Below, piece by piece: positions 10,163 through 31,403 of a DNA stretch of 45,720 nt. Below the pieces are notes generated by a model, which saw only the letters and a list, made by a program, of their open reading frames with translations, made no database searches and was not told where the DNA came from. Each line of letters begins with the position of its first letter. Within the stretch, counting starts at the first letter, position 1. The position numbers and the translations under genes are program-made. The stretch covers positions 112,452 through 158,171 of the forward strand of contig VJZX01000009.1 of NCBI GenBank assembly GCA_009663185.1, written 5' to 3'. The DNA comes from Isoptericola halalbus (GTDB taxonomy: Bacteria; Actinomycetota; Actinomycetes; Actinomycetales; Cellulomonadaceae).

Positions 10163-10213
10163 GGGGGCTCCTTCGTCAGGTTGATCGATTGTCGTGCCTC
10201 GGCGCGGGGCGCC

Positions 10214-13765: not shown

Positions 13766-13796
13766 AACGTAGCGCACCGCCTGCCGATTGTCGACC
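13766..13796 (-). promoter_or_regulatory. Promoter of the HAD1 operon with GGTCGA-type operator (site 1)
   Basis: On the minus strand TCGACA (13789-13794) and TACGTT (13766-13771) are 17 bp apart and read toward HAD1. The -35 lies inside GGTCGACAATCGGCA (13782-13796), one mismatch from the GGTCGA-N3-TCGACC inverted repeat seen elsewhere in the window. The neighbouring GntR gene is divergent; a TTGACA at 13812-13817 may be its own -35. Confidence 0.6.
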
Positions 13797-13897
13797 GTCG
13801 GCCGCATTCCGTTGACACTTGCCTTCTGATGGCGGAGACTGCTAGAGGCAACGTACCGGGGCCGATCAGCGGTGCCGGTGACCGAGGGGAGTCGATC

Positions 13898-14614
13898 GTG
13901 GCAGTGTCCGGGCTGAGTTCGCTGAAGACGCTCGAGCGGAAGTCGACCTCCGATCGCATCGCCGAAGATCTGCGGCAGATGATCATCGAGGGACGGCTCA
14001 TGCCGGGCGAACAGCTGGCCGAGGCACGAATCGCCGAGCTGCTCGACGTGTCCCGCGCCCCCGTGCGTGAGGCGCTGCAGCAGCTCGTCCAGCAGAAGCT
14101 GCTGGTCGCCGCGCGGAACCGGGGTGTCTCGGTGGTGACCTTCACGGCGTCCGACATCTGGGAGATCTACGACGCGCGGTGCGCGATCGAGAGTCACGCT
14201 GCCGGCAGGATCCTCGACGGAGGGCCGGGCGCCCGGGCCCGCGCGACAGACGCCTTGCGGGCGGTCCTGGAGAGGCTGCGCGTCGCGTTGAAGCAAGGCG
14301 ATCACCGGAAGATATCGGCCGTTGACCTGGACTTTCACACCTCGCTGGTCGCCTCTGCGGGCAACTCGCGCCTCGTCGACGCATATTCCATCCTCTCGGC
14401 CCAGACGCTCACGTGCATCAACAGGCTCGAGATCGCGATCCCGTCCGGCGAAGAGCTCATCGACGAGCACGGCGTCCTCATCGACGCCCTTGCTGCTGGT
14501 GAGCGAGAGGCGTTGCTGAAGGCCATCAACGACCACCTGACCGTGGCCGCAAGCCACCTCACGTCGCCGCAGTCCCAGGGTCGGACCGATGGAGAGCCCG
14601 GCCTGCCTCGCTGA
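13898..14614 (+). CDS. GntR-family regulator, FCD subgroup (GntR1)
   Basis: The 238-residue regulator has an N-terminal winged helix and a C-terminal helical FCD ligand domain typical of FadR-like repressors. The wHTH shows SDRIAEDLRQMIIEGRLMPGEQLAEARIAELL with recognition helix DVSRAPVREALQQL. The FCD domain contains YDARCAIESHAAGRI and the metal-site-like DLDFHTSLV. The GTG at 13898 is preferred because it follows GAGGGGAG at 6 bp; an in-frame ATG at 13829 lacks such a site and may lie upstream of the transcript start. It sits between the HAD1 operon and the ABC importer, both of which carry the same operator motif, so it probably controls both. Confidence 0.88.
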   Translation: MAVSGLSSLKTLERKSTSDRIAEDLRQMIIEGRLMPGEQLAEARIAELLDVSRAPVREALQQLVQQKLLVAARNRGVSVVTFTASDIWEIYDARCAIESHAAGRILDGGPGARARATDALRAVLERLRVALKQGDHRKISAVDLDFHTSLVASAGNSRLVDAYSILSAQTLTCINRLEIAIPSGEELIDEHGVLIDALAAGEREALLKAINDHLTVAASHLTSPQSQGRTDGEPGLPR

Positions 14615-14789
14615 TCCGACGTTCGGCGCCCACCGAACCGCGTGGCCGCGACGCTCACCCAAGCGCGCTCGACGACGCCCGCCCCGCTCAGACCCACGGC
14701 TGTCGCTGCCGGTCTCGGGGCGGGCGCCGTGTTGTCTCTGCGCGCCCCGCGTGCTCGCGGTCTCGCGAAACAAGCTGTTTACGGACGAG

Positions 14790-14820
14790 TGTCGACAATC
14801 GTCTGTCGGCATGCTTGTAT
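14790..14820 (+). promoter_or_regulatory. Promoter of the ABC importer with GGTCGA-type operator (site 2)
   Basis: TGTCGACAATCGTCT (14790-14804) matches the operator seen at five other places (core GTCGACAATCG). It contains TCGACA (14792-14797), which sits 17 bp before TTGTAT (14815-14820), an acceptable -35/-10 pair reading toward the binding-protein gene at 14856. The -10 is weak, so the exact start is uncertain. Confidence 0.55.
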
Positions 14821-14855
14821 TGGACGCGTCACTCCACCGCTTGAAGGGAACGACC

Positions 14856-15794
14856 ATGAGAGTGCAACGAAGCAAGCTCGCCGCGTCCGTCCTCGGAGCC
14901 GTGCTGCTGGTGTCGGCCAGCGGGTGCGGCGCGACGACCGCCACCTCTAGCGACGGGGCCCCGGGCACCGACAGCACCCCCGCCGACGCGCCGCCGACGG
15001 TCCAGCCCGACCCCGAGGCGATCAAGCTGTTGCCGGCAGACCTGCAGGACGGCGGCACGATCACCATGGCCGCGGACCTGCACTACCCGCCCACCTCGTT
15101 CCTCGCTGAGGACAACACGACGCCGGTCGGCTACAACGTCGACATCGCCCACCTGCTGGGTGAGGCGCTCGGGCTCGAGGTCGAGGTCAAGAACGTGACC
15201 TGGGATGGAGTGATCCCCGGCATCGCCGCTCACCGCTACGACTTCACCGCCACCAACATGACCCCGACCCCGGACCGGCTCGAGGTGCTGGACATGATCA
15301 CCTACTGGTCGGCCGGGTCGTCGCTCATCGTGGCGAAGGGCAACCCGCTGGACCTGAGCCTGGCCGACCAGTCCATGTGCGGGAAGAAGATCTCGGTCAT
15401 GACCGGTAGCACGCAGCAGGAGAAGTATCTGCCGGAGATCTCCGAGGCGTGCGAGGCCAACGGCCAGGACGCCGTCGACGCCGTGGTCCTGCCGAACGTC
15501 CAGGGTGCGCTCACCCAGCTGGCCTCGAAGCGCATCGACGGCGTCTTCTCCGACACGTCGCAGCTGGCCTGGGCGGAGAAGCAGCAGCCGCAGGCGTTCG
15601 AGCTGCTCTCGCCGCAGTATCAGAAGAAGGAGGGCGACGACATCGTCGCCCTCGGTCTTCCCAACGACTCCCCGCTCACCCCGGCGCTCCATGCCGCGAT
15701 GCAGTACCTGATCGACGACGGGGCGTACCAGGCCGCGCTGGACCGGTGGGGGCTGGGCGCGGGCGCCATCCCGACCTCCGAGACCCTGAGCTAG
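14856..15794 (+). CDS. ABC transporter substrate-binding lipoprotein, amino-acid type
   Basis: This 312-residue extracellular binding protein of family 3 (polar amino acids) delivers ligand to the permease encoded next. The ATG at 14856 follows GAAGGGA at 6 bp. A lipoprotein signal is present: basic MRVQRSK, hydrophobic LAASVLGAVLLVSAS, then Cys24 in SGC. The mature part starts with a Thr/Pro/Asp-rich linker, then GTITMAADLHYPP and YNVDIAHLLGEALGLEVEVKN, both typical of this fold, and KISVMTGSTQQEKYLPE in the second lobe. A conserved amino-acid-binding Arg is not obvious, so the ligand may not be a standard alpha-amino acid. It heads the operon SBP > permease > ATPase > flavin oxidase. Confidence 0.92.
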   Translation: MRVQRSKLAASVLGAVLLVSASGCGATTATSSDGAPGTDSTPADAPPTVQPDPEAIKLLPADLQDGGTITMAADLHYPPTSFLAEDNTTPVGYNVDIAHLLGEALGLEVEVKNVTWDGVIPGIAAHRYDFTATNMTPTPDRLEVLDMITYWSAGSSLIVAKGNPLDLSLADQSMCGKKISVMTGSTQQEKYLPEISEACEANGQDAVDAVVLPNVQGALTQLASKRIDGVFSDTSQLAWAEKQQPQAFELLSPQYQKKEGDDIVALGLPNDSPLTPALHAAMQYLIDDGAYQAALDRWGLGAGAIPTSETLS

Positions 15795-15852
15795 TCCGAT
15801 GGCTCCAGACGTCGGCGTGCTCAACAAGAGCCCCTCCGAGGAGGCAAAGGCA

Positions 15853-16746
15853 ATGGATGCGACTGACAAGCCGCGACTGCACAGGCGTGGGCCGCTCGAG
15901 TACGCGGCCTGGGCGGCCTGCGTGCTGGTCGGTGCGGGGTTGGCGCACACGCTGGTCACGAACGAGAACTACCAGTGGAACGTGGTGGGCCAGTACTTCA
16001 CCGCTCCGACGATCCTGCAGGGCCTGCGACTGACGATCGTCCTGACGTTCCTGGCCATGTTCTTCGGAACCATCCTGGGCATGGTCATCGCCGTGATGCG
16101 AGCCTCGACGATCCGCCCGGTCCAGCTCCTGGCGTCGGGCTACATCACCTTCTTCCGGGGAACCCCGGTGCTGGTGCAGCTCATCTTCTGGTTCAACATC
16201 GCCGCGCTGTACCCGAACATCGCGGTCGGGATCCCGTTCACCGGCATCTCGCAGGCGGTCGACGTCAACGTGCTGATGAGCGCGACCACCGCGGCGATCA
16301 TCGGCCTGTCGCTCAACGAGGCGGCCTATCTCGCGGAGATCATCCGCGGTGGCTTCGCGTCGGTGGACAAGGGCCAGATCGAGGCGGCCGACTCGCTCGG
16401 GATGAGCGCCCGGAAGAAGCTGTTCCGAGTGATCATCCCGCAGGCGATGCCCACCGTCGTCCCGGCGACGGGCAACCAGGTGATCGGGATGTTCAAAGAG
16501 ACGTCGCTGGTCAGCGTGCTGGGCGTGGCCGAGCTGCTGCAGAGCACCCAGCTGATCTACGCCCGCACCTACCAGGTCATCCCCCTGCTGATCGTGGCCT
16601 GCCTGTGGTACCTCATCATGACGCTGGCCCTCAGCTACCCCCAGTCCCTGATCGAGAAGAGGTACTCGCTCGTGCGATCTCGGGTGAGCAACGAGGCCAA
16701 CGAGGCCCTGGTCGACCCCGTGCCGATGGGTGGTGAGGCGCGATGA
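15853..16746 (+). CDS. ABC transporter permease, polar amino acid family
   Basis: Inner-membrane subunit of the importer (297 residues). About five to six transmembrane helices are visible, for example [39 protein letters not shown] and [18 protein letters not shown]. The ATPase-contact EAA loop is [20 protein letters not shown]. The [15 protein letters not shown] segment is characteristic of HisM/GlnP-type permeases. The ATG at 15853 follows a GGAGG at about 8 bp; an in-frame ATG at 15799 would add 18 residues. It ends in an ATGA overlap with the ATPase gene. Confidence 0.92.
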
Positions 16747-17510
16747 ACGGCGACGGAACCGTCTACGCCCGCAAGCTGCGCAAGTCCTACGGCGACCGGG
16801 TGGTGCTCGGCAGCATCGACCTGGACGTCAGGTGCGGCGAGATCGTGTGCATCATCGGCCCCAGCGGGTCGGGCAAGTCCACGCTGCTGAGGTGCATCGA
16901 CGGGCTCGAGGAGGTCGACCGAGGGATCCTCAGGGTGAACGGCGAGGACCTCGGGTTCGTCGAGACCGACACCGCCTACCGTGCGCGCAACCGCAAGGAG
17001 GTGGCGATGCAGCGCACCCGGATGGGCATGGTCTTCCAGCAGTTCAACCTGTTCCCGAACATGACCGCGCGGGAGAACGTGATGGCCGGGCCGGTGCTGG
17101 TCAAGGGCGCCGCCAAGAAGGCGGCGGCCTCGCGGGCGGACTCGCTGCTGGCCGACGTCGGCCTGGCCGGACACGGTGACCACTATCCGTGGCAGCTCTC
17201 CGGCGGGCAGAAGCAGCGTGTGGCGATCGCCCGTGCCCTCGCGATGGACCCGAACGTGATGCTCTTCGACGAGCCCACGAGCGCCCTGGACCCCGAGCGG
17301 GTCGGGGAGGTCCTGGCGGTCATGAAGGGTCTGGCGGAGCGGGGGATGACCATGCTCGTGGCCACCCACGAGATGGGCTTCGCCAAGGAGGTGGCCGACA
17401 CCGTGATCTTCATGGACGGCGGCGTGGTCGTGGAGCAGGGGCCGCCCGCGGAGGTGCTGGGCAATCCCAAGGAACCCCGGACGCAGAAGTTCCTGGCACA
17501 GGTGCTGTGA
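16743..17510 (+). CDS. ABC transporter ATP-binding protein, polar amino acid family
   Basis: The 255-residue motor subunit of the importer. Walker A is GPSGSGKST (residues 39-47), the Q-loop is in [10 protein letters not shown], the signature is LSGGQKQR, Walker B is [14 protein letters not shown] and the switch His is in VATHEMGF. It overlaps the permease stop codon (ATGA) and its own stop overlaps the next start (TGATG), so it is tightly coupled on both sides. A single permease gene means the importer is probably a permease homodimer with two copies of this subunit. Confidence 0.94.
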
Positions 17511-18652
17511 TGTCGGACGGCAAGCTCGCAGTCATCGGCGTCGGCAGCGTCGGCAGCATGGCGCTGTGGCACGCCTCGAAGTTGGGCGTCCCGGCTGTCG
17601 GCTTCGAGGCGGTGTCGCCGGCGCACCCCCGCAGCGCCGTGGGTGGAGACTCCCGGCTGTTCCGGATGACGTTCCGAGGGGAGCACAACCTCTACCCGGT
17701 GCTCGAGCTCGCCGAGCGCGTGTGGCGGGGCCTCGAGGAGGAGTCCGGGCAGGAGATCCTCACCCAGTGCGGGGGACTGTCGATCGGTGAGGTGGACGGG
17801 CCCTACGTCCCTGCGCTGCTCGAGTCGATCAAGCGCACCGGGGCGCCGTACGAGATCCTCGACCACGCCGAGATGGCGCGCCGTTACCCCCAGCATCATC
17901 TGTCGCCGGGGGAGTGCGGCATCCTCGATGCGCGAGCGGGGATCCTCCGCACCGATCGCGCAGTGCTCTCCGCCGTCGAGGTGGCGCGCCAGAACGGCGC
18001 GGAGGTGGTCAAGGACGCCCGGGTTCGCGAGGTCCGCGAGCTCTCCGACGGGGTACGCGTCTCGACCGACGACGGAAGCTGGACGTTCGACCAGGTGATC
18101 GTGGCGTCGGGCGCCGGATCCGGTGCTCTGCTGCCTGCCTTCCTCCAGCGGCAGGTGCACCAGAGGCGGATCTTCCTGACGTGGTTCGCCGCCCGCGACC
18201 CCCAGCAGTTCGTTCCAGATGCCTTCCCGATCTTCATCCGGATCACGCGCGGCCGTTCCATGTACGGGGCACCGACGATCGACGGTTCGACGGTAAAGGC
18301 AACCCTGGACGGGCGGGGAGCGACGGTGGCGGACGGCGACACGATCGCCCGGGAGCTCACGCCTGCCGAGGTCGCCGAGTCGGTCGACACGGTCCAGGAG
18401 TTCTTCCCCGGTCTGATCCCCGAGATCGTCCGGTCGGACGCCTACCCCGACCTGTACACCTCCGACTCCACCGGCCTCCTGGGGCACGTGCCTGGCAGCG
18501 AGCGCATCTACTGCGCGACCGGGTTCTCGGGCGGCGGCTTCAAGATGTCCTCGGCGCTGGGCGCCATCGCCGCCTCGGAAGCGCTCGGCGCGGTTCCGCT
18601 CGTGGACGGCTTGGACTTCCTTCGTCCGGCGCGGTTCGCGTCCGCCGGCTGA
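17510..18652 (+). CDS. Sarcosine oxidase / N-methyltryptophan oxidase-like flavoprotein
   Basis: This 380-residue DAO-superfamily enzyme resembles MSOX/MTOX, which oxidise N-methyl amino acids to imines. The FAD motif is VIGVGSVGSMALWHASKLGV near residues 8-27, followed by HPRSAVGGDSRLFRMTF (family form HxxGSSHGxxRIxR). The C-terminal CATGFSGGGFKMSS matches the family's AGFSGHGFKFS. The cysteine that covalently holds FAD in MSOX/SolA (CxYTxTPDEHF) is replaced: the segment reads YPDLYTSDST with Asp314 at that position, so FAD may be non-covalent. It is the last gene of the importer operon (TGATG overlap), so its substrate is probably what the importer brings in. Confidence 0.88.
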   Translation: MSDGKLAVIGVGSVGSMALWHASKLGVPAVGFEAVSPAHPRSAVGGDSRLFRMTFRGEHNLYPVLELAERVWRGLEEESGQEILTQCGGLSIGEVDGPYVPALLESIKRTGAPYEILDHAEMARRYPQHHLSPGECGILDARAGILRTDRAVLSAVEVARQNGAEVVKDARVREVRELSDGVRVSTDDGSWTFDQVIVASGAGSGALLPAFLQRQVHQRRIFLTWFAARDPQQFVPDAFPIFIRITRGRSMYGAPTIDGSTVKATLDGRGATVADGDTIARELTPAEVAESVDTVQEFFPGLIPEIVRSDAYPDLYTSDSTGLLGHVPGSERIYCATGFSGGGFKMSSALGAIAASEALGAVPLVDGLDFLRPARFASAG

Positions 18653-18660
18653 CCCGCCCC

Positions 18661-18732
18661 GACCGGGGCCTCACGATCGTCGGGCGAGCAGGGGTCTCTG
18701 CTCCCTCACCGACGATCGCGGAGGCCCCGGTC
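18661..18732. terminator. Long hairpin between convergent genes
   Basis: Left arm 18661-18683 (GACCGGGGCCTC, then CGATCGTCGG) pairs with right arm 18709-18732 with a single bulge, and a smaller GAGCA/TGCTC stem sits in the loop. It lies between the convergent flavin oxidase and GntR2 genes and could stop transcription from both sides. There is no U-tract after either arm. Confidence 0.7.
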
Positions 18733-18772
18733 TTGTCCGTGCCGCGCTCCTTGACGGGACGCTCCGCACCCT

Positions 18773-19444
18773 TCAGTCGCGACCGTTCAGGATCTCGATG
18801 ACCCGCCGGGCGTTGCTCTCGATGTGGCTGCGCACCTGCTCGACCGCGGTGGCGGTGTCGCCGGACTCGATGGCCTCGAGGATCGCCCGGTGCTCGGCGA
18901 GAACGTCGTCGGGATGCTCGAACTCGCGGTCCTCCAGCGACAGAACGGTCAGGTAGAAGCGCAGCTCGACCATGAGCTCGGCGTAGAACTCGTCGAGGCG
19001 GCTGCTGCGTAGCGTCGCGACGATCGCGGAGTGGAATGCCAGGTCCAGGTCGACGATGCGAAGCACGTCGTGCGAGGCCGCTGCTTCGACGAGCTTGTCG
19101 TACGCCGTCTTGAGTGCCGCCAGCTCAGGCTCCCTGACGGGGCGGGAGACCGCCGCGGTCTCCAGCAGCTCGCGGGCGGTGTAGAGGGCGTCGACCTTCT
19201 CCGGCGTCGGTGAGATGACGACGGCGCCGCGGTTGACCTCGTACTGCACCAGGCCGCTCTGCTCGAGGATCCGGACCGCCTCTCGCACCGTGTTGCGGGC
19301 GACACCCAGCTCCGTGGCTATCGCGCTCTCGCGCAACCGGTCCCCAGGCGCGAACGCGCCGGCGACGATCCGCGAGGCGAGACCAGCGGCCACCTGCTGC
19401 GCGGCCGTTGACCGCTGCACCACCAGACCTTCGAGTGCTGACAT
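18773..19444 (-). CDS. GntR-family regulator, FCD subgroup (GntR2)
   Basis: The 223-residue regulator has the wHTH QQVAAGLASRIVAGAFAPGD and recognition helix TELGVARNTVREAVRILE, then an FCD domain with DLDLAFHSAIVATLRSSRL. The recognition helix (VARNTVREAV) differs from GntR1 and GntR3 (VSRxPxREAL). The ATG at 19442-19444 gives a typical short lead into the wHTH; the open frame starts at 19480. It is divergent from the six-gene aminotransferase operon. A perfect palindrome next to that operon's start is the likely binding site. Confidence 0.88.
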   Translation of the reverse strand: MSALEGLVVQRSTAAQQVAAGLASRIVAGAFAPGDRLRESAIATELGVARNTVREAVRILEQSGLVQYEVNRGAVVISPTPEKVDALYTARELLETAAVSRPVREPELAALKTAYDKLVEAAASHDVLRIVDLDLAFHSAIVATLRSSRLDEFYAELMVELRFYLTVLSLEDREFEHPDDVLAEHRAILEAIESGDTATAVEQVRSHIESNARRVIEILNGRD

Positions 19445-19472
19445 GCCAGCAAGAATAGTCCGCCAGCACCCC

Positions 19473-19509
19473 TTGTGCACTACAGCGCAACTGTTCTACA
19501 GTTGCGCAC
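19473..19509 (+). promoter_or_regulatory. Palindromic operator overlapping a leaderless promoter
   Basis: GCGCAACTG-TTCTA-CAGTTGCGC (19485-19507) is a perfect 9-bp inverted repeat ending 2 bp before the ATG at 19510. TACAGT (19498-19503) fits a -10 element whose start would fall at or beside the ATG, and TTGTGC (19473-19478) could be the -35 with a long 19-bp spacer. No Shine-Dalgarno fits, so the mRNA is probably leaderless. GntR2, divergent and adjacent, is the likely binder. Confidence 0.65.
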
Positions 19510-20772
19510 ATGGCAGCGACGAATCTTCCGGGCGACGCGCTCTGGAACCCGCAGGCTCATATGCCGACCGCACGGCCCAAGCGCCTCGTGCTGACGGGGG
19601 GAGAGGGTGCGTGGCTCGAGAGCTCGACGGGTCAGCGACTTCTCGACGCGACCGCGAGCCTGTGGCACGCGAACATCGGCCATGGACGGGCTCGTCTCGC
19701 CGAGGCGGCGTACCTGCAGATGCTGAAGCTGGAGACGTACCACACGTTCGGCCGCTTCGCGAACGAGCCCGCCCTCGAGCTCGCCGATCGACTCGCGGAG
19801 ATCGGGCCTGTGTCCGGCGCCAAGGTCATGCTCACCAGCGGCGGCTCCGACTCGGTCGACCTGGCGTGCAAGCTGGCGCGCCGGCACTGGCAGCTCGAGG
19901 GGCGCCACGAGAAGACGACGATCCTCAGCCGCGTCGGCGCGTACCACGGGCTGCACGCCTTCGGCACCAGCGTGGCCGGCCTGGAGTACAACCGGGACGG
20001 CTACGGCACCGCCTCGCTCGTCCCGGAGACCGCGAGGGTCGCGACCAACGACATCGCGGCCGTCCGGCGCTCGGTCGCCGAGATCGGCCCGGAGAACATC
20101 GCCGCGATCATCGCCGAGCCGGTCATCGGCACGGGGGGCGTCATCGGTCCCGCCGAGAGCTACCTCCAGGGCCTCGAGAACCTTTGCCGAAGCCATGACA
20201 TCCTGCTCATCGCCGACGAGGTGATCACCGGCTTCGGCCGGACCGGCCACATGTTCGCGTCCCACCGCTGGGACGTCGAGCCGGACATGGTCACGATGGC
20301 CAAGGGCATCACGTCCGGCTACGCCCCGCTGGGCGGGGTCCTCGTGTCGCCACGCATCTCCGAGCGGTTCTTCGAAGGCGCGGACGCGCCGATCTTCCGT
20401 CACGGCCTGACCTACTCCGGTCATGCCACCGCCTGCGCGGTCGCGCTCGCGAACCTGGCCGTGATCGAGGAGGAGGGGCTGGTCGAGGAGGCGGGCCGGC
20501 TCGAGAACGTCCTGGCAAAGGCGGTCGAGCACCTGCGGGACCATGAGCTGGTCGAGGAAGTGCGCTCCGGAGCCGGCTTCATGGCGGGCATCCACCTGCA
20601 CGAGGGTGTCAACGGCGACGCTATCGCCGAGGCCTGCACGGACGCCGGAGTGCTGATCCGGGTCATCCACGACAACACGCTGCAGATCTGCCCGCCCTTC
20701 GTCACCACCGACGCCGAGGTCGAGCTGATCGCCGGCACCATCACCCAGGCGCTCGACGCCTACCAGGACTAG
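19510..20772 (+). CDS. Class III (omega-)aminotransferase, PLP-dependent
   Basis: This 420-residue fold-type I aminotransferase moves an amino group from an omega- or distal amine to a keto acid. The PLP site is complete: TSGGSDSVD for phosphate (about 109-117), IADEVITGFGR with D236, and the Schiff-base lysine K265 in MAKGITSGYAPLGG. The next gene is alanine dehydrogenase, which points to pyruvate as amino acceptor: the alanine formed is recycled to pyruvate and ammonia. A semialdehyde-type dehydrogenase two genes on would oxidise the other product. It is the first gene of a six-gene operon and probably translated from a leaderless message. Confidence 0.92.
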   Translation: MAATNLPGDALWNPQAHMPTARPKRLVLTGGEGAWLESSTGQRLLDATASLWHANIGHGRARLAEAAYLQMLKLETYHTFGRFANEPALELADRLAEIGPVSGAKVMLTSGGSDSVDLACKLARRHWQLEGRHEKTTILSRVGAYHGLHAFGTSVAGLEYNRDGYGTASLVPETARVATNDIAAVRRSVAEIGPENIAAIIAEPVIGTGGVIGPAESYLQGLENLCRSHDILLIADEVITGFGRTGHMFASHRWDVEPDMVTMAKGITSGYAPLGGVLVSPRISERFFEGADAPIFRHGLTYSGHATACAVALANLAVIEEEGLVEEAGRLENVLAKAVEHLRDHELVEEVRSGAGFMAGIHLHEGVNGDAIAEACTDAGVLIRVIHDNTLQICPPFVTTDAEVELIAGTITQALDAYQD

Positions 20773-20784
20773 GAGAAGAAGCAC

Positions 20785-21861: not shown

Positions 21862-21881
21862 GTTCAGTGACGGAGGCAAAG

Positions 21882-23378: not shown

Positions 23379-24496
23379 GCGGGCGGCGCGAGTACACGGT
23401 CGACGTGATCGCGGGTGACGGGATCGGTCAGGAGGTGATGCCCGCGGCGATCACCTGCATCGACGCGATCGCTCCCGCCCTGGGCTTCACGGTCACCTGG
23501 CGTGACCGCGAGTGGGGCTCGGACCACTACCGCGAGCATGGCCGGATGATGCCGGTGGACGGCATCGACCAGCTTGCCACCGGTGACGGCATCCTGCTGG
23601 GGGCGGTCGGCGCCCCCGACATCCCGGACGACGTCACCCTCTGGGGGCTGCTGATCCCGATCCGCCGAGAGTTCCAGCAGTACGTGAACCTGCGCCCGGT
23701 GCGGATCCTGCCGGGCGTCGTCTCACCCATCGCGGGTCTGGACGAGCTCGACATCGTGGTCGTCCGCGAGAACGTCGAGGGCGAGTACTCGGAGATCGGC
23801 GGCCGGGTGTACCGCGGACGCCCGGAGGAGACGGCCGTCCAGGAGGCGGTGTTCACCAGGGCCGGGATCGAGAGGGTCGCCGAGTACGCCGTCGACCTCG
23901 CGGGCCGGCGTCAGGGACGCCTCGTCTCGGCGACCAAGTCCAACGGCATCATCCACACGATGCCGTTCTGGGACGAGGTCGTCAGGGAGTGCGTCGCGGC
24001 GAGCCCCGGCGTCACGCTGGAGAGCGTCCTCATCGACGCCCTGGCCGCGCGGGTCGTGCTCAAACCCCGCTCGATCGATGTGATCGTCGCATCGAACCTC
24101 TTCGGCGACATCCTCTCCGACCTGGCGGCCGCCGTCGCAGGGTCGATCGGCGTAGCCCCGAGCGCAAACCTGAACCCGCCGCGGCAGTACCCGTCGATGT
24201 TCGAGCCGGTGCACGGGTCCGCGCCCGACATCGCCGGCCGGGGCATCGCGAACCCGGTGGGTCAGATCTGGGCGTCCGCGATGATGCTCGAGCATCTCGG
24301 CGAGCCCGTCGGTGCGAAGGTTCTGCTCGACGGCATCGAGGCGGCGATGGCTGAAGGGATCCGCACCGCGGACCTGGGCGGCACCGCCACCACGACCGAG
24401 GTCGCGGACGCCGTCACGCGCCATTGCCTGGACGCACTGGCGACCATGGACGTGCACGCGGACGAGGACGAGGACATAGATGCGTACGGGCGCTGA
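23375..24496 (+). CDS. Tartrate dehydrogenase / D-malate dehydrogenase-type decarboxylating dehydrogenase
   Basis: This 373-residue member of the isocitrate/isopropylmalate dehydrogenase family would oxidise and usually decarboxylate a 2-hydroxy acid with NAD. Landmarks are DVIAGDGIGQEVMP, LRPVRILPG, the active-site VRENVEGEYSEIGG, ATKSNGIIHTMPFWDEV, the metal-site ASNLFGDILSDLAAAVAGS, and the adenine-site FEPVHGSAPDIAGRGIANP. The YRGRPEETAVQ stretch and overall length favour the tartrate/D-malate subgroup over leucine biosynthesis. It overlaps the upstream gene by 4 bp and the downstream lyase gene by 17 bp. The exact substrate is open. Confidence 0.85.
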   Translation: MSGRREYTVDVIAGDGIGQEVMPAAITCIDAIAPALGFTVTWRDREWGSDHYREHGRMMPVDGIDQLATGDGILLGAVGAPDIPDDVTLWGLLIPIRREFQQYVNLRPVRILPGVVSPIAGLDELDIVVVRENVEGEYSEIGGRVYRGRPEETAVQEAVFTRAGIERVAEYAVDLAGRRQGRLVSATKSNGIIHTMPFWDEVVRECVAASPGVTLESVLIDALAARVVLKPRSIDVIVASNLFGDILSDLAAAVAGSIGVAPSANLNPPRQYPSMFEPVHGSAPDIAGRGIANPVGQIWASAMMLEHLGEPVGAKVLLDGIEAAMAEGIRTADLGGTATTTEVADAVTRHCLDALATMDVHADEDEDIDAYGR

Positions 24497-25889
24497 TCAC
24501 GACGTTCGCGTCGAGCACGACCTGCTCGGCGACCACGCAGTACCGGCTGCGGCGCTCTACGGGGTTCACACCGCCCGGGCAGGGGCGAACTTTCAGATCA
24601 CCGGTGACACGCTCGCGCGCTACCCGCTGCTGATCGAGGCGCTGGCCGCCGTCAAGCAGGCCGCAGCGGCGGCCAACCGCCGCTGCGGTCGTCTGGACCC
24701 GACGGTCGCCGCAGCGATCATCGACGCCTGCGAGCAGGTGCGTCGAGGCGAGCACCACGACCAGTTCGTGGTCGATCCCCTCCAGGGCGGGGCCGGTACG
24801 TCGACGAACATGAACGCGAACGAGGTCATCGCGAACCTCGCCCTCGACCGGCTCGGGCACGGCCGAGGCGAGTACGACGTCGTCCACCCCCTGGAGCACG
24901 TCAACCTCGGACAGAGCACGAACGACGTCTACCCCACGGCCGTCAGGCTCGCGCTGCACCGAGCCGCGGGAGACCTGCAGGAGTCGCTGGACCTCCTGCA
25001 GCGGGCCCTCGTCGCCAAGGCGGCCGACCTCGCGACGACGGTCAAGCTCGGTCGTACGCAGCTGCAGGACGCCGTCCCCATGACTCTGGGTCAGGAGTTC
25101 GGCGCCTTCGCCGGCATGCTGGCGAAAGAGGAGGACGCGCTGGCCCGTGCCCGTCGGCATCTGTGCGAGCTGAACTTGGGAGGCACGGCGATCGGGACGA
25201 GCCTCAACGCGCACCCCGACTTCCGGGTCAATGCCCTGGCGGAGCTGCGAACGATCACCGGCATACCCGCGCTGCGCTCCGCGGACGACCTCGTCGAGGC
25301 CACCCAGGACACCGGAGCGTACGTGCACCTGTCGTCCGTCCTGAAGGGGACGGCCGTCAAGCTCTCCAAGATCTGCAACGACCTACGGCTGCTGAGCTCC
25401 GGGCCGCGTGCGGGTCTGCATGAGATCAGCCTCCCGCCCGTCCAGGCGGGATCGAGCATGATGCCCGGGAAGGTCAACCCCGTCATCCCGGAACTCGTGA
25501 ACCAGGTCGCGTTCGAGGTCATCGGGAACGACCTGACCGTGACGCTCGCCGCCGAGGCCGGACAGCTCCAGCTCAACGCCTTCGGACCTGTTATCGCGCG
25601 GTCCCTGCTAGACGGCGCGGCGCACCTCGCCGCCGCCGTGCGCGCTCTCGCCGAGCGCTGCGTCGCGGGCATCACCGTCAACCGGGAGCACCTGGCGAAC
25701 CTCCTGCAGGGCTCACTCGTCACCGTGACCCACCTGAGCCCGGTCCTGGGTTACGCGCGAGCGAGCGAGCTCGCCGTCGAGGCGGGCGCCATCGGCGGGG
25801 GAGTTCTCGACCTGGCTGTGAGCAAGGGTCTGCTCGACGACGTCCAGGTCCGCCAGATCGAGGAGGCCGCGGGGGTGGGCGGCCCATGA
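24480..25889 (+). CDS. Aspartate ammonia-lyase (aspartase/fumarase superfamily)
   Basis: The 469-residue lyase would convert aspartate, or a close analogue, to fumarate and ammonia. Family regions are clear: LYGVHTARAGANFQITG, GGAGTSTNMNANEVIAN, the substrate-site HVNLGQSTNDVYPTA, TVKLGRTQLQDAVPMTLGQEF, and the mobile-loop signature GSSMMPGKVNPV (about 322-334). These match aspartase somewhat better than fumarase. Its start lies inside the upstream gene (17-bp overlap) and its end overlaps the SDR start (ATGA). Within an operon that releases nitrogen as ammonia, an aspartate or N-substituted-aspartate substrate is plausible. Confidence 0.88.
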   Translation: MRTGADHDVRVEHDLLGDHAVPAAALYGVHTARAGANFQITGDTLARYPLLIEALAAVKQAAAAANRRCGRLDPTVAAAIIDACEQVRRGEHHDQFVVDPLQGGAGTSTNMNANEVIANLALDRLGHGRGEYDVVHPLEHVNLGQSTNDVYPTAVRLALHRAAGDLQESLDLLQRALVAKAADLATTVKLGRTQLQDAVPMTLGQEFGAFAGMLAKEEDALARARRHLCELNLGGTAIGTSLNAHPDFRVNALAELRTITGIPALRSADDLVEATQDTGAYVHLSSVLKGTAVKLSKICNDLRLLSSGPRAGLHEISLPPVQAGSSMMPGKVNPVIPELVNQVAFEVIGNDLTVTLAAEAGQLQLNAFGPVIARSLLDGAAHLAAAVRALAERCVAGITVNREHLANLLQGSLVTVTHLSPVLGYARASELAVEAGAIGGGVLDLAVSKGLLDDVQVRQIEEAAGVGGP

Positions 25890-26599
25890 GCACGGCGCGA
25901 AGGTTGGCGGTGGTCACCGGGGGTAACCGGGGGATCGGCCTCGAGATCTGCCGGCAGCTCGCAGAGCGCGACTACCACGTGGTCCTGACCGCCCGGGACC
26001 CCGACCGGGCCGACGAGCAGGCACGATCGCTGGACGCCACCTGCCCCGGTGAGGTCAGCGGCCTGGGGCTCGACGTCGTGGACGCGGAATCCGTCGTGTC
26101 GGCGTTCCGGCACGTCAGAACGCACCACGGCAGGATCGACGTGTTCGTCAACAACGCGGGCATCGCCGTCGACGGCCCGGAGCACCGGCCGTCCGCACCC
26201 GACTTCACGCGCGTCCGGCGCACCCTGGAGACGAACCTCCTCGGCGCGTGGCGATGCTGCGCCGAGGTCGTCCCGGAGATGCGGGCCCGCGGCTACGGCC
26301 GGATCGTCAACCTGAGCAGCACCATGGCGTCGCTCGACCTGACCGGATCGGCGAGCTCGCCCGCCTACCGCATCTCGAAGACCGGGCTCAACATGCTCAC
26401 CCGGACCCTGGCCGCCGAGCTCGAGGGCACCGGCGTCCTGGTCAACGCTGCGTCGCCCGGGTACACCAGGACGGACATGAGTCCCGACGCCGAGCGCCCG
26501 GTCGAAGTGGGAGCAGATACGCCGGTCTGGCTGGCCACCCTGCCCGACACGGGACCGACGGGACAGTTCTTCTTCGACCGGCAGCCGCTCGCCTGGTGA
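25886..26599 (+). CDS. Short-chain dehydrogenase/reductase (SDR1)
   Basis: The 237-residue classical SDR has the cofactor motif VTGGNRGIGLEI, the NNAG motif in VFVNNAGIAVDG, and the catalytic set Ser in NLSSTM plus Y-x-x-x-K in AYRISKTG. It lacks the long C-terminal part of some SDRs and ends DTGPTGQFFFDRQPLAW, a form shared with carbonyl reductase-like SDRs. It is the last gene of the six-gene operon and overlaps the lyase stop codon (ATGA). It probably reduces or oxidises a pathway carbonyl or alcohol; the specific substrate is unknown. Confidence 0.88.
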   Translation: MSTARRLAVVTGGNRGIGLEICRQLAERDYHVVLTARDPDRADEQARSLDATCPGEVSGLGLDVVDAESVVSAFRHVRTHHGRIDVFVNNAGIAVDGPEHRPSAPDFTRVRRTLETNLLGAWRCCAEVVPEMRARGYGRIVNLSSTMASLDLTGSASSPAYRISKTGLNMLTRTLAAELEGTGVLVNAASPGYTRTDMSPDAERPVEVGADTPVWLATLPDTGPTGQFFFDRQPLAW

Positions 26600-26629
26600 G
26601 CGCAGCGAGGTTCCCGTCCGTCTTGCACG

Positions 26630-27155
26630 GCCCTCCGTGAGATGGGTCCCGTTGGGCGAGAGCACCGGGCCGCCTTCCACGTCGCGACCGCGTGCCAGTA
26701 CTTGACCCGCAGCGGCGAGGTAGCGAACCTTGCTGGCGGCCTCGGCCGTCGGCGCGGTGTAGATCGGGCCCATCGCCGCAGCGACCCGTCACGGACCTTG
26801 ACCACGATCGCGTCGAGGTACATGAGCAGGTAGAACGCCTCCATCAGCCGGTTCTGCCAGGCCATGACCTCCTCGCAGATCTCGGCGATGACGTTGCCGA
26901 TCGCCTCGTGGCTCAGCTCGGTGCTGATGCCCGCCCAGGCGCGCGCTCCTCTGGGCACGAGCATCAGGTGTTCGTCCCGTCGCGGTCCCGCGGCACGTCC
27001 AGACGCGCGTCGCCGACCTCCGTGGAGACCGTCTTCGACGTGATGCCGTTTCGCGAGTTCGGGAAGTGCTTGGACTCCAGGTCGCCCTTGTCGTAGCCCG
27101 TCATCGCTCAGCTCGGCCTGCAACCCGCGCTCGAGCGCGGCCTTGGTCATGCCGG
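26630..27155 (-). pseudogene. Decayed IS256-family transposase
   Basis: Minus-strand fragments in different frames match the IS256 mutator-type transposase in order: GMTKAALERGLQAELSD (near 27153-27105), then GYDKGDLESKHFPNSRNGIT with EVGDARLDVPRDRDG in another frame (27110-26990), then ISTELSHEAIGNVIAEI and VMAWQNRLMEAFYLLMYLDA with VVKVRDG (26930-26800), then IYTAPTAEAASK (near 26765). Frameshifts and a large internal loss make it non-functional. No terminal inverted repeats were found. It separates the two halves of the catabolic cluster. Confidence 0.75.
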
Positions 27156-27412
27156 CGGCATCCCGCCGTCCCGGTGAGCTGAAATTCGCCCGCATCGATC
27201 CTGGCGAACAATCCGTAGCGCACCCGAGGCGACCAGCTCGGCCGCCATCGCGTCCTGTTTGTCGTCCGTCACGGACACACATGCTCCTCTCGTCAGACCC
27301 ATGACCAGGCCTTACACAGAGAAGCCGGCACCCCGGGCTACGGCTCAGCGGGCGGGTCCCGGCCGTCAAGATCAAAGTCGCCAAACGCCCATCCGAGACA
27401 TCCAGGGGCCGA

Positions 27413-27800
27413 GTTCGATCATCTGTCGTGCAGCCTCGACGTGCCCGCACATGCCCTGCGGGTGGTGACCCGCTGGATCGCGGGGCACCGCCGCAGCCAC
27501 GACCGCCGGCCGCGGCAGCGGGCCGCGTCCGTACGCACGCAGGCGATCCTGCTGCGCTGGTTCAAGGACGCCACCCCCGGATGCCCACGCCGACCCCGCG
27601 ACGTCCAGATCTCGCTCGCCACGACCTACCGGTTCGTGCACGAGGGCGATCGACGTCATCGCTGCCCCGCGCCCCGGGACTGCACGAGGCGCTGGCCGAC
27701 GCCCGTGCGCAGCACTGGCCGTTCGTATGTCTGGACGGCGCCACCCACGACATCACCGCCGCCGCCCTCGTCCTACTCCACCTTCAACGAGGCAGCCGAC
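27413..27800 (+). pseudogene. Decayed transposase fragment (IS5-like)
   Basis: The forward frame reads FDHLSCSLDVPAHALRVVTR and then RTQAILLRWFKDATP, followed by SLATTYRFVHEG. After a frameshift it continues with LHEALADARAQHWPFVCLDG. The order and content resemble the N-terminal part of actinobacterial IS5-type transposases (HTH followed by the first catalytic strand with FVCLDG). The catalytic remainder is missing. The family call rests on memory of similar proteins and is moderate in certainty. Confidence 0.6.
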
Positions 27801-27841
27801 GACCCTGGTGAGAACACCTCAGTATGTGTCGCGGCAGGGAC

Positions 27842-29119
27842 TCAGCTCACGCGGTCCTTGAGCTTGTAGTAGGCGCCGGCGACGGGCAGGAACCAGGGCG
27901 GGCCGAAGTGGCCGGGGATGCGGCGGAAGGGGAAGTCACGCCAGATGTTCGCCTCGGGGACGCCGGCCATGTACTCGGCCATCTGGCGGCCCATGTAGGT
28001 GGCCATCTGGACGCCGTGTCCGGCGTAGCCCATGGAGTAGTAGACGCCGTCGCGTTCGCCGGCGTGGACCATGCGGTCGATGCTCATGTCGACCAGGCCG
28101 CCCCAGCAGTAGTCGATCCTGGCGTCGGACAGCTGCGGGAGGATGCGGACCATCGCGTCGCGCAGGATCTGCCCGCTCTTCTCGTCGGACTCGGGGTTGG
28201 ACATCGCGAACCGTGCTCGGCCCCCGAAGAGCAGGCGGTTGTCGGGCGTGATCCGGAAGTAGTTGAGGATGTTCTTGGAGTCCGAGGCCACCCGCCGAGT
28301 GGGGAGGAGCTCGTCGCACCTGCTGGTGCCGAGCGGCTCGGTTGCGATGATGAAGCTGCCGACCGGAGCGATGCGGACCTGGTGCCAGCGGAACGGCCGG
28401 CGGGTGTACGCACCGGTGGCGACGAGCACCTGGTCTGCCTGGATGCGGCCACGGGGGGTGGTGAGCTCGTGGCCTGAGCCGCGCTTGGCCAGCGTCAGCA
28501 CGGGCGCGTTCTCGTGGATGGTGACCCCAGCGCGCTCGGCGGCCTCGCCGAGCCCGCGGATGTACTTGCCGACGTGCAGGCTGGCGCTCTTGGAGTCGAT
28601 CAGGGCGCCGTGGTAGACGTCCGAGCCGATCTCGCGATGCAGCTCGGCCTTGGGGACCAGGTCGGCCTCCACGCCGAGGCGTGTGGTGAGCAGCTCGGCG
28701 GTCTTGGCGAACCCCTCGTAGTGTGCCGGCTTGGTGGCGAGGTTGAGCTTGCCGGGGCGGGCGAAGTCGCAGTCGATGCCTTCGTCGGCGACGAGCTTTT
28801 CGATCAGGTCGATCGCCTGGCCGTAGGAGCGGTACAGCGGCTCGGCCTTGTCCAGGCCCATCTTGGCCACCGCGGCCCGGATGCCGATCGACATGCCGGT
28901 GGTCGCCATGCCGCCGTTGCGACCTGAGGCGCCGAACCCCACGGTGTGCTGCTCGAACAGGTGCACCTTGGCTCCACGTCGAGCCAGGTGCAGGGCGGCC
29001 ACCACGCCGGTCAGGCCGCCCCCGATGACCGCCACGTCGGTGCGGCCCTCCACGACGGTCGTGGATCGCTCGGCCGCACCTGCGGGGGCGGTGTCGAGCC
29101 AGTAGGACGTGAACTTCAT
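27842..29119 (-). CDS. FAD-dependent amine oxidase 2 (PuuB/OrdL, DAO superfamily)
   Basis: A 425-residue paralogue of the oxidase at 11731-13008, identical in length and sharing long identical blocks such as GFGASGRNGGMATTG (one residue differs), YFRITPDNRLLFGGRARFA and GHFGPPWFLP. The FAD motif is VAVIGGGLTGVVAALHLA near residue 28-45. It would oxidise an amine to an imine/aldehyde and peroxide. Unlike copy 1, its HAD partner is divergent instead of upstream in the same operon, and no aldehyde dehydrogenase or cupin follows; the transposase scars lie directly downstream, so a longer operon may have been cut. The two copies may act on different amines or successive intermediates. Confidence 0.9.
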   Translation of the reverse strand: MKFTSYWLDTAPAGAAERSTTVVEGRTDVAVIGGGLTGVVAALHLARRGAKVHLFEQHTVGFGASGRNGGMATTGMSIGIRAAVAKMGLDKAEPLYRSYGQAIDLIEKLVADEGIDCDFARPGKLNLATKPAHYEGFAKTAELLTTRLGVEADLVPKAELHREIGSDVYHGALIDSKSASLHVGKYIRGLGEAAERAGVTIHENAPVLTLAKRGSGHELTTPRGRIQADQVLVATGAYTRRPFRWHQVRIAPVGSFIIATEPLGTSRCDELLPTRRVASDSKNILNYFRITPDNRLLFGGRARFAMSNPESDEKSGQILRDAMVRILPQLSDARIDYCWGGLVDMSIDRMVHAGERDGVYYSMGYAGHGVQMATYMGRQMAEYMAGVPEANIWRDFPFRRIPGHFGPPWFLPVAGAYYKLKDRVS

Positions 29120-29210
29120 GCGTACTCCTCACAGGGACCCGGACGACCGGCGTCGGCCGCCGAGGCACGGGCGGAACAGCGCCGCAGAGCGACGCAGCCC
29201 GGCCACACTT

Positions 29211-29253
29211 TGTTGACAGTCGACCACCATACACGTATGGTCGACAATCGACC
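29211..29253 (+). promoter_or_regulatory. HAD2 promoter bracketed by two GGTCGA-type operators (sites 3 and 4)
   Basis: A consensus -35 TTGACA (29213-29218) and TATGGT (29236-29241) are 17 bp apart and read toward HAD2. Site 3, TGTTGACAGTCGACC (29211-29225), covers the -35. Site 4, GGTCGACAATCGACC (29239-29253), is a perfect 6-bp inverted repeat with a 3-bp spacer and covers the end of the -10 and the start region. The two sites lie 28 bp apart, which suggests co-operative repression. The region also serves the divergent oxidase gene. Confidence 0.7.
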
Positions 29254-29293
29254 AGGGCGGATCAGGCCGCTCGGCTGATCACAGGAGGACCTC

Positions 29294-29974
29294 ATGGGAT
29301 TTGACGTCAAGCCGAAGTTCGTGACGTTCGACATGAACGGAACGCTGATCCAGTTCCGGATCAACGACGCGATCCGTGAGGTGCTGGGCGACCGGCTGCC
29401 GGCCGAGGTCGCCGCCGAGTTCCTGCAGACCTGCAAGGCGTACCGGATCGACGAGTGCCTCGGCGAGTACAAGCCGTTCGAGCAGATCGTGGGCCGTTCC
29501 ATGGAGCGGTCCATGCGCCGGTTCGGTCTCGAGTACCGCGAGGGCGATGCACGGGCCGTGCACGACCGCATCCCCACCTGGGGCCCGTACCCCGGTGTCA
29601 CCGCAGCACTGCGGCGCCTGGCCGAGGCCTACCCGCTGGTGATCGTGACGAACAGCGACGACGCGCACGCCGAGCGCCTGGCGGCCAACCTGCAGGCCCC
29701 GTTCGAGCTGGTGATCAGCGCCGAGCAGATGGGTGTCTACAAGCCCCGGCTCCGGGCGTTCGAGGACATGCTCGACAAGCTCGGGGCGGCGCCCGAGGAG
29801 ATCGTGCACGTCTCGGCGAGCCCGATGTACGACCTGCGTCCGGCGGCGGTCATGGGCATCGAGCACAAGGTGTACGTGGACCGGGGCTTCGAGCACGACG
29901 AGTCGTGGCTCGGCTACGAGCGGATCACCGACATCGCCGACCTGCCCGTCCTGTTCGGTCTGCCGCGCCCCTGA
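29294..29974 (+). CDS. HAD-superfamily hydrolase, haloacid dehalogenase type II-like (HAD2)
   Basis: The 226-residue paralogue of HAD1 has nucleophile D13 in TFDMNGTL, but the residue two positions on is Asn15, neither the Asp of phosphatases nor the Tyr of known haloacid dehalogenases. Motif II is VIVTNSD (T119), motif III is K150 in VYKPRL, and motif IV reads HVSASPMYDL, with D180 kept and the usual GD pair lost. The ATG at 29294 follows an AGGAGG. It is divergent from the second amine oxidase and followed by a GntR gene. A C-N, C-O, C-P or C-halogen hydrolase activity is possible; ordinary phosphatase activity is unlikely. Confidence 0.83.
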   Translation: MGFDVKPKFVTFDMNGTLIQFRINDAIREVLGDRLPAEVAAEFLQTCKAYRIDECLGEYKPFEQIVGRSMERSMRRFGLEYREGDARAVHDRIPTWGPYPGVTAALRRLAEAYPLVIVTNSDDAHAERLAANLQAPFELVISAEQMGVYKPRLRAFEDMLDKLGAAPEEIVHVSASPMYDLRPAAVMGIEHKVYVDRGFEHDESWLGYERITDIADLPVLFGLPRP

Positions 29975-30037
29975 GGGGCGCACGCAGTCGCCGCGCGACG
30001 GCATGTTCGGCGCCGGAGTGGCAGAAGCATCCGGTAC

Positions 30038-30052
30038 GGTCGACAAGCGACC
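30038..30052 (+). promoter_or_regulatory. GGTCGA-type operator upstream of GntR3 (site 5)
   Basis: GGTCGACAAGCGACC lies 17 bp before the GntR3 start and differs by one base from the perfect repeat at 29239-29253. Its position suggests autoregulation. No convincing -10 element is seen at the matching distance, so GntR3 may also be read from the HAD2 promoter. Confidence 0.6.
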
Positions 30053-30069
30053 ATGAAAGAGGCGGTGCG

Positions 30070-30753
30070 ATGAACCTCGAGCTCGGAGGGTTGGAACGGA
30101 CCACGACGCCGGAGGGCGTCTACCGGGTGCTGCGGGCCGCGATCCTCGACGGCACCTTCCCTCCTGGTGGGCAGCTGCGCGAGCGCGACATCGCAGACAG
30201 CCTCGGGGTCAGTCGGTCGCCCCTGCGCGAGGCCCTCACCAGGCTCGAGGAGGAGGGGCTGGTCGTGAAGATCCCCTTCCGCGGAGCGTTCGTGATGGAG
30301 GTGAGCGCTCAGGACGTCGCCGAGATCGCCTCGATCCGCTTGCTCGTCGAGCCGTACGCGGCGCAGCTGTCGCTCGAGGCGCTGCGCGGCCGCGAGCGCC
30401 CCAGGCTGACCCGGACGCTCGAGAGTCTGCGTCGGGCGACCGACCAGAACGACATCCCGGCCAGCATCGACGCGCACCTGCAGATCCACCGGCTCTTCTA
30501 CGACCTCTCGGGACACGGTGTGCTGCGTAGCCTCTGGGCGGGGTGGGAGACGAAGCTGCGCATGTACCTCACGGTCGACCACCGCTCCTACGGCGACCTT
30601 CATGACATCGCCGTCGAGCACGAGCGGCTGGTGGAGATCGCCCTGGAGGGCGACGCGGACAAGTTCCGGCAGGAACTGGCGCGCCACTTCCAGTCTGCCC
30701 TGCGCGCAGGCAGCGGGGACTCCGGGAGCGGACCCGCCGAACCAACCATGTAA
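30070..30753 (+). CDS. GntR-family regulator, FCD subgroup (GntR3)
   Basis: The 227-residue regulator has the wHTH VYRVLRAAILDGTFPPGGQL and recognition helix DSLGVSRSPLREALTRLEEEG. The FCD domain follows with IRLLVEPYAAQLSLEAL and an IHRLFYDLSGH segment. Its recognition helix (VSRSPLREAL) is close to that of GntR1 (VSRAPVREAL), and both lie among copies of the same operator. The ATG at 30070 follows a GAAAGAGGCGG stretch. It sits between HAD2 and the RidA operon and probably controls the whole second module. Confidence 0.88.
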   Translation: MNLELGGLERTTTPEGVYRVLRAAILDGTFPPGGQLRERDIADSLGVSRSPLREALTRLEEEGLVVKIPFRGAFVMEVSAQDVAEIASIRLLVEPYAAQLSLEALRGRERPRLTRTLESLRRATDQNDIPASIDAHLQIHRLFYDLSGHGVLRSLWAGWETKLRMYLTVDHRSYGDLHDIAVEHERLVEIALEGDADKFRQELARHFQSALRAGSGDSGSGPAEPTM

Positions 30754-30825
30754 CGAACAGGCTTTGCTGCTGCGGCGGTGGGCGAGCGTCCGCGAGGACG
30801 TTGACGATCAACTCGGCCCGCTAGC

Positions 30826-30840
30826 GGTCGACAATCGACA
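30826..30840 (+). promoter_or_regulatory. GGTCGA-type operator upstream of RidA (site 6)
   Basis: GGTCGACAATCGACA keeps the perfect GTCGA-CAA-TCGAC core and lies 38 bp before the RidA ATG. A TTGACG at 30801-30806 could be a -35 but no good -10 is seen 16-18 bp later, so the promoter itself is not resolved. Confidence 0.6.
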
Positions 30841-30877: not shown

Positions 30878-31354
30878 ATGACTAGGAGTCACACCACGAG
30901 CGGTGCGGCCACGGAGCGACTTCAGGCTCTGGGCCTGAGCCTTCCCGCTGTCAGTGACAACCCACACTTCGTGAACCACCGGAGCATCGACTCCAGTGTC
31001 CACGTGGCCGGCCAACTGCCGTTCAAGGACGGCAAGCTCCTGGGCACGGGCATCGTCGGACGGGACGTCGACCTCGAGACCGGTCGTGAGCTGGCGCGTC
31101 ATGCGGCGCTCAACGCGCTCGCCGTCGCCGCGGACGCGGTTGGCGGCCTCGACCACGTCCGGATCGTGCAGATGCTGGTCTTCGTGGCCAGCACGCCCGA
31201 GTTCGGTCTGCAGTCGAAGGTCGCCGATGCGGCCAGCGATCTGCTCGTCGAGGTGCTCGGTGAGAACGGGCGGCACGCTCGCACGGCCATCGGTGTCGCC
31301 AGCTTACCGCTGCACACCCCGGTCGAGATCCAGATGGTCTGCACCGCGGTGTAG
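30878..31354 (+). CDS. RidA-family enamine/imine deaminase, long form
   Basis: This 158-residue RidA/YjgF-type protein belongs to the longer subgroup that starts with a RLQALGLSLP helix before the chorismate-mutase-like fold. Core features are SSVHVAGQLPF, the ALNALAVAADAVGGLDHVRIVQMLVFVAS strand-helix unit, and HARTAIGVASLPLHTPVEIQ, which keeps the catalytic-site arginine of the family. RidA proteins hydrolyse reactive enamines and imines released by PLP or flavin enzymes. It precedes a D-serine-dehydratase-like PLP enzyme and follows amine-oxidase genes, both of which make such intermediates. The ATG at 30878 is used; a TTG at 30869, nearer the AGGAG, is an alternative. Confidence 0.87.
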   Translation: MTRSHTTSGAATERLQALGLSLPAVSDNPHFVNHRSIDSSVHVAGQLPFKDGKLLGTGIVGRDVDLETGRELARHAALNALAVAADAVGGLDHVRIVQMLVFVASTPEFGLQSKVADAASDLLVEVLGENGRHARTAIGVASLPLHTPVEIQMVCTAV

Positions 31355-31403
31355 GACCGGCCGACAGACCCCACCGCCCGCATCGACGTTCGAGGAGCGC
31401 AGC

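Follow-up and report, generated by a model that had tools for sequence, protein, structure and literature searches.

Two related operator types, probably read by two GntR-FCD regulators, at the HAD and FAD-oxidase gene modules of Isoptericola halalbus

The DNA considered in this study, hereafter the window, is a stretch of 45,720 nucleotides from Isoptericola halalbus (contig VJZX01000009.1) that carries two putative catabolic gene modules, whose features are listed in Table 1. Module 1 consists of a HAD type II hydrolase (HAD1), an oxidase, the regulator GntR1 and an importer, and module 2 of a second hydrolase (HAD2), a second oxidase, the regulator GntR3 and a RidA-like gene with its aldolase-like partner. 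Both hydrolases exceed the curated cut-off (125.4) of the HAD type II model TIGR01428, HAD1 with 152.2 and HAD2 with 136.2 bits. The regulators belong to the GntR family, FCD (FadR) subfamily: GntR1 scores 67.0 bits with PF00392 (cut-off 27) and 73.7 bits with PF07729 (cut-off 24.3), and the corresponding scores of GntR3 are 67.0 and 69.8 bits. A third protein, GntR2, likewise has GntR and FCD domains. A short motif lies before these genes at six sites, which the original prediction took for one operator joining both modules into one regulon. The sites are, with high probability, genuine operators, and their sequences point to two related types, one for each module.

All six sites are present (13782-13796 on the minus strand, 14790-14804, 29211-29225, 29239-29253, 30038-30052 and 30826-30840) and all are intergenic, as predicted. 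They had been described as having at most one mismatch in an arm, which is generous: compared with the 15-mer GGTCGACAATCGACC they show, in the same order, 2, 3, 3, 0, 1 and 1 mismatches. At up to three mismatches the window contains nine matches to this 15-mer, as compared to 3.2 expected, and one of 100 shuffles reaches nine, so that by this test the weaker sites have no significance on their own. The 11-mer core GTCGACAATCG is far more telling. It occurs four times in the genome of 4,103,245 bases, each time at a reported site (13782, 14790, 29239 and 30826), so the motif in this form is not equally frequent inside genes; the reversed control has no copy genome-wide, and the site at 30038 is a one-base variant of the core. 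The 15-mer with no more than one mismatch has three copies in the genome, all in module 2. A looser core with the tenth base free, GTCGACAANCG, was rejected as a genome-wide marker, since it was no commoner than its reversed control, either in the organism itself (13 copies, 14 for the control) or in the majority of the 15 genomes inspected. A separate match to GGTCGACAATCGACC, with three mismatches, lies at 10183-10197 on the minus strand, between an aldehyde dehydrogenase and a cupin gene.

Because the 11-mer was derived from the sites themselves, its conservation elsewhere is an independent test, and one that it passed. A scan of 84,980 species genomes by HAD alignment yielded at least 80 loci, and of 396 genomes searched within the same order, eight gave matches. 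Among the listed loci, HAD2 orthologues of at least 68% identity come from Streptomyces, Arthrobacter, Amycolatopsis, Lentzea, Prauserella and two further genomes of the order. Most of these genomes carry the core once or twice ahead of HAD2, with more copies ahead of GntR3 and RidA, the latter heading a RidA-aldolase pair as it does in the window. A relaxed core (GT[CT]GACAANC, within 250 bp upstream and oriented toward the gene) was found before 21 of 23 HAD2 genes (three of these regions being from the single genome G251), 13 of 18 GntR3 genes, all 11 selected RidA genes, three of five HAD1 genes and three of four importers. At the same loci it occurs 70 times in 13,688 bp of upstream regions, as compared to 15 times in 438,584 bp elsewhere. 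The two HAD2 regions that lack it are L048 and L089, and L089 has the core in the opposite orientation. Six other genomes within the class contain HAD1 relatives of 60-66% identity (seven of 394, counting the organism's own), and no HAD2 relative was found in the viral contigs searched. Rhizobial look-alikes, GATCGACAATCTKCC, lie about 5-7 kb before HAD genes and were not counted as operators; those of L091 and L101 stand directly before an ABC-ATPase reading frame and were judged by eye to be coding sequence.

The sites of the two modules look alike because of their common 11-bp core, but they are differently built around it. Those before HAD1 and the importer form a 20-bp palindrome, GCCGA-NN-GTCGAC-NN-TCGGC, centred between GTC and GAC, and those before HAD2, GntR3 and RidA form a 17-bp inverted repeat, TGGTCGA-CAA-TCGACCA, centred on CAA. 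When 63 distinct sites are pooled, the symmetry beyond the core about CAA amounts to 124 pairs, as compared to 99 expected (reached by none of 2000 shuffles), an excess that is inflated by the relatedness of the sites. The other centre, between GTC and GAC, was rejected for the pooled sites (62 pairs, 68 expected) and holds for module-1 sites only: of eight pairs about that centre, HAD1 sites average 4.7 and importer sites 5.3, as compared to 1.2-2.6 in the module-2 classes (p=0.0002, 6 against 57 sites). Without mismatch, the pattern GMMGANNGTCGACNNTCKKC is confined in the organism's genome to the two module-1 sites, and three more places match it with one mismatch. Weight matrices trained without the window, on 54 GntR3-type sites and on three GntR1-type sites from genomes G164 and G901, separate the window's sites in the same way. 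The GntR1 type is favored at 13782 (by 15.4 bits) and 14790 (11.7 bits), and the GntR3 type at 29239 (25.9 bits), 30038 (14.9 bits) and 29211 (13.2 bits). The RidA site is intermediate, with 18.3 for the GntR3 type and 17.0 for the GntR1 type, a gap of 1.3 bits.

The site types follow the regulators in other genomes as well. Genome G164 has GntR1 (79% identity) and the module-1 operators, with no GntR3 hit at E<=1e-25, and in G901, whose GntR1 is 77% identical, HAD1 and the importer are preceded by the same 20-bp palindromes. Conversely, G752, G754 and G756 have GntR3 (69-74%) and the module-2 operators, with no GntR1 hit at the same threshold. Others, among them G251 and G755, combine GntR3 with more distant GntR1-like proteins (39-44%). 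In the tree of regulators, GntR1 clusters with its G164 and Prauserella relatives (97/93), and the GntR3 clade comprises 18 rows (100/100); the tree does not show the two clades as sisters, and row L036 is an artefact.

The positions of the sites relative to predicted promoters give some indication of how they might act. The -35 hexamer had been placed inside the operator in three cases, and this holds for HAD1 and the importer, while in module 2 the element next to or overlapping the operator is chiefly the -10. At HAD1 the operator contains a -35-like TCGACA, and after a 17-nt spacer comes TACGTT in the window, TACTTT in L028, TAGTGT in L089 and TACGAT in L183, so that the pattern TCGACA-17-TAnnnT recurs in four genomes. 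The importer promoter has a weak -10, with similar spacing in L028 and L027. Before HAD2, 18 of 23 regions have a perfect TTGACA 16-18 nt ahead of a -10, which in eight regions, including the window, directly adjoins the operator (TAnnGT) and in ten lies inside it (GACAA). The site at 29211 coincides with such a TTGACA, 17 nt from TATGGT, and its position in other genomes holds TTGACA and then varied sequence; it is best read as the HAD2 -35 box and is the weakest of the six. In nine of 11 RidA regions TTGACA stands 17-18 nt before a TATGGT at the operator, and in 11 of 18 GntR3 regions TATAGT abuts the operator, without a clear -35. Operators that cover the -35, the -10 and the predicted start would fit the action of repressors.

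Near the presumed GntR1 promoter there is a second element, GTTGACA (13812-13817), possibly a weaker GntR1 site. The sequence around the GntR1 -35 is partly conserved, reading GTTGACAA in L028 and L183 and GTTGACAC in the window.

The reading I prefer, to which I would give about two chances in three, is that each module has its own FCD-type GntR regulator, probably a repressor, and that the two act through related operators. GntR1 would bind the two module-1 sites, which lie over the -35 elements of the predicted HAD1 and importer promoters. GntR3 would bind the module-2 sites, placed over the HAD2 -10 and predicted start, before its own gene and before RidA. Both would most likely repress by occluding core promoter elements, and a compound of the pathway may release them both. 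Since the operators share GTCGACAATCG, some cross-binding is possible; cross-talk between the regulators would be most plausible at the RidA site, and a single control circuit common to both gene sets is possible.

Several observations weigh against this assignment. In the window the GntR3 and RidA promoters are weak and without a good -35/-10 pair. Prauserella (L089) encodes a relative of GntR1 (53%), and its only GntR3-like protein is distant (36%), yet the site at HAD1 is scored there as GntR3 type (a margin of 5.9 bits) and the one at HAD2 as GntR1 type; these mixed sites could represent cross-reading or a switch of regulator, and they blur the division into two types. The exact core is missing from five of the 18 GntR3 regions (L044, L047, L052, L022 and L025), the first three of which have near variants. 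Amycolatopsis (L048) has both HAD1 (76%) and HAD2 (78%) without the core, and eight loci of the more distant HAD1 relatives (L117-L124) gave no operator match under the filter used, so that the operator is not tied to every HAD1 homologue. The loci are largely close relatives, mostly from Streptomyces, and the counts are therefore not independent; the gene classes and upstream regions were picked after a first survey of conservation; GMMGANNGTCGACNNTCKKC was designed after inspection of the window's sites; and the GntR1 matrix is small (three distinct sites from two genomes, one more being an identical copy).

The strongest competitor is the original proposal of one operator and one regulon, in which GntR1 and GntR3 both bind all sites and the modules are co-regulated. 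I consider it unlikely, although it draws on the confinement of the shared core to these sites, on the intermediate RidA site and on the mixed sites of Prauserella. It also draws on the recognition helices, whose likeness had been pointed out and is real: the residue after SR is A, S or T in 22 of 22 rows of the GntR1 and GntR3 clades, as compared to one of 24 other regulator rows, 16 of which have G there. The shared SR[A/S]P[V/L]RE thus sets the operator-linked regulators apart from their neighbors; it tracks phylogeny, however, and is no proof that both bind the same sites. What speaks against one regulon is that there are two differently centred palindromes, whose distribution matches the module within the window and the regulator in G164, G901 and Streptomyces, and each is found elsewhere beside one regulator without the other detected. 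Moreover, GntR1 and GntR3 fall into separate supported clades and align over only 127 residues, with 39% identity.

Much less probable is that the sites serve one regulator only and the other acts elsewhere, for example GntR1 on the nearby GTTGACA-type elements. The partial conservation around the GntR1 -35 would accord with this, but G164, where no GntR3 was detected, retains the two module-1 operators, and the module-2 operators persist in three genomes in which GntR1 was not detected. The notion that no operator is involved, and that promoter sequences or a GC-rich composition produce the motif as a by-product, is scarcely credible: it is true that most regions show overlap of the site with a -35 or -10 hexamer, that 29211 consists largely of a -35 box and that most of the 66 matches to GTCGACAAWCGAC across the 396 genomes lie outside this system, but the arms beyond the hexamers are conserved and symmetric, and the eight matches in three genomes with a HAD2 orthologue (E<=1e-110) are all upstream of HAD2 or RidA. 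For 30 of these 66 matches the loci were fetched, one being the window itself. None of the 29 others encodes a relative of GntR1-3 (blastp, E<=1e-5, 1.5 kb on each side), and these copies look like background. What survives of the original prediction, then, is that the sites appear to be conserved, promoter-overlapping operators linked to GntR1 and GntR3.

The operator consensus of the FadR (FCD) subfamily is TNGTN(0-3)ACNA. The present sites resemble it in their GT-CG-AC, as the system resembles the subfamily in the GntR and FCD domains of GntR1 and GntR3 and in the autoregulatory, promoter-overlapping placement of the predicted sites. Among the 63 distinct sites, the GTCGAC core has an invariant A at +5 and, in 90%, T at -5. 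The sites differ from the consensus in a conserved TCGAC extension on one side, which makes an extra arm, and in having two dyad centres around the same core. Among NCBIfam models the PhnR-type TIGR03338 matches each of the three GntR proteins best, but with scores of 115.3, 123.5 and 84.7 as compared to a cut-off of 271.5 they are not members. Among the papers listed by searches of the open-access literature, by operator string (titles and the starts of abstracts) and by topic, there was no regulator with these operators.

The result provides a concrete and testable regulon, with promoter positions and two candidate regulators, for a catabolic system of HAD and FAD-oxidase genes that several genera of actinobacteria possess. 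If the division into two palindromes is true, it would be a natural case in which to study how related repressors share or separate operator specificity, and it illustrates that a same-looking motif alone does not demonstrate one regulon. A bolder extension, which I hold to be doubtful, is that two distant FCD regulators read overlapping palindromes sharing the half GACAATCG and differently centred, so that one core would serve two repressors; that promoters like that of RidA would take both inputs; that operators can switch regulator, as Prauserella hints; and that the pathway degrades strained-ring or secondary-amine amino acids opened by HAD1 in the manner of azetidine-2-carboxylate hydrolase.

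Table 1. Genes and predicted regulatory elements of the two modules (positions within the window).
Feature	Position	Strand	Remarks
FAD-dependent oxidase 1 (DAO family)	11731..13008	-	downstream of HAD1
HAD1, HAD type II hydrolase	13034..13708	-	
Predicted HAD1 promoter	13766..13794	-	-35 TCGACA (13794-13789) in operator, 17 nt, -10 TACGTT (13771-13766)
Putative module-1 operator, 20-bp palindrome GCCGATTGTCGACCGTCGGC	13783..13802		between HAD1 and GntR1; holds the 13782-13796 site; same arrangement in L028 and L183
GntR1, GntR-FCD, assigned to module 1	13898..14614	+	PF00392 and PF07729
Putative module-1 operator GACGAGTGTCGACAATCGTC	14784..14803		before importer; holds the 14790-14804 site; same place in L028 and L183
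Predicted importer promoter	14792..14821	+	TCGACA in operator, 18 nt, TGTATT (or 17 nt, TTGTAT)
Importer: solute-binding protein, permease, ATPase; polar-amino-acid type ABC system	14856..17510	+	
FAD-dependent oxidase 2 (DAO family)	27842..29119	-	divergent from HAD2
Predicted HAD2 promoter, TTGACA-17-TATGGT	29213..29241	+	-35 box is most of the 29211-29225 site
Putative module-2 operator, TGGTCGA-CAA-TCGACCA	29238..29254		overlaps HAD2 -10
HAD2, HAD type II hydrolase	29294..29974	+	
Putative module-2 operator CGGTCGACAAGCGACCA	30037..30053	+	before GntR3; autoregulation presumed
GntR3, GntR-FCD, assigned to module 2	30070..30753	+	PF00392 and PF07729
Putative operator before RidA	30826..30840	+	intermediate between the two types
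RidA-like and D-threonine-aldolase/D-serine-dehydratase-like proteins	30878..32510	+	follow GntR3

As to the pathway, the best solved match of HAD1 is L-azetidine-2-carboxylate hydrolase (PDB 3smv, 8ywo, 9v14; E=1.3e-23, over residues 11-193 only), far stronger than its match to the classical 2-haloacid dehalogenase 1jud (E=4e-08). This is a likeness of sequence, and the substrate it suggests is putative. HAD2 is less clear, the same hydrolase (E=1.6e-11) being one of several matches with similar scores. PMC8016842 describes a HAD enzyme that hydrolyses azetidine-2-carboxylate, which is then used via the γ-aminobutyrate (GABA) pathway. A class-III aminotransferase and a semialdehyde-dehydrogenase-like protein are encoded nearby in the window. 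The degradation of azetidine-type or related secondary-amine amino acids may be taken as a lead only.

Related arrangements were seen elsewhere. In Streptomyces scabiei (L135:1377-2333) a further GntR3-like regulator (44%) has GGTCGACAATCGACC and two near matches around it, which is probably a third regulon with the same operator. In the relatives L021-L023 and L029-L034, several HAD type II genes lie within 35 kb, accompanied by FAD oxidase and GntR-FCD genes, a pattern suggestive of repeated duplication of the module. Within the window, a near-perfect dyad with 10-bp arms, GCGCAACTGT-TCT-ACAGTTGCGC, lies between GntR2 and the aminotransferase (19485-19507). It is unlike the other sites and is likely to be an operator for GntR2; near the same place L028 has CTGTAGTACAG.

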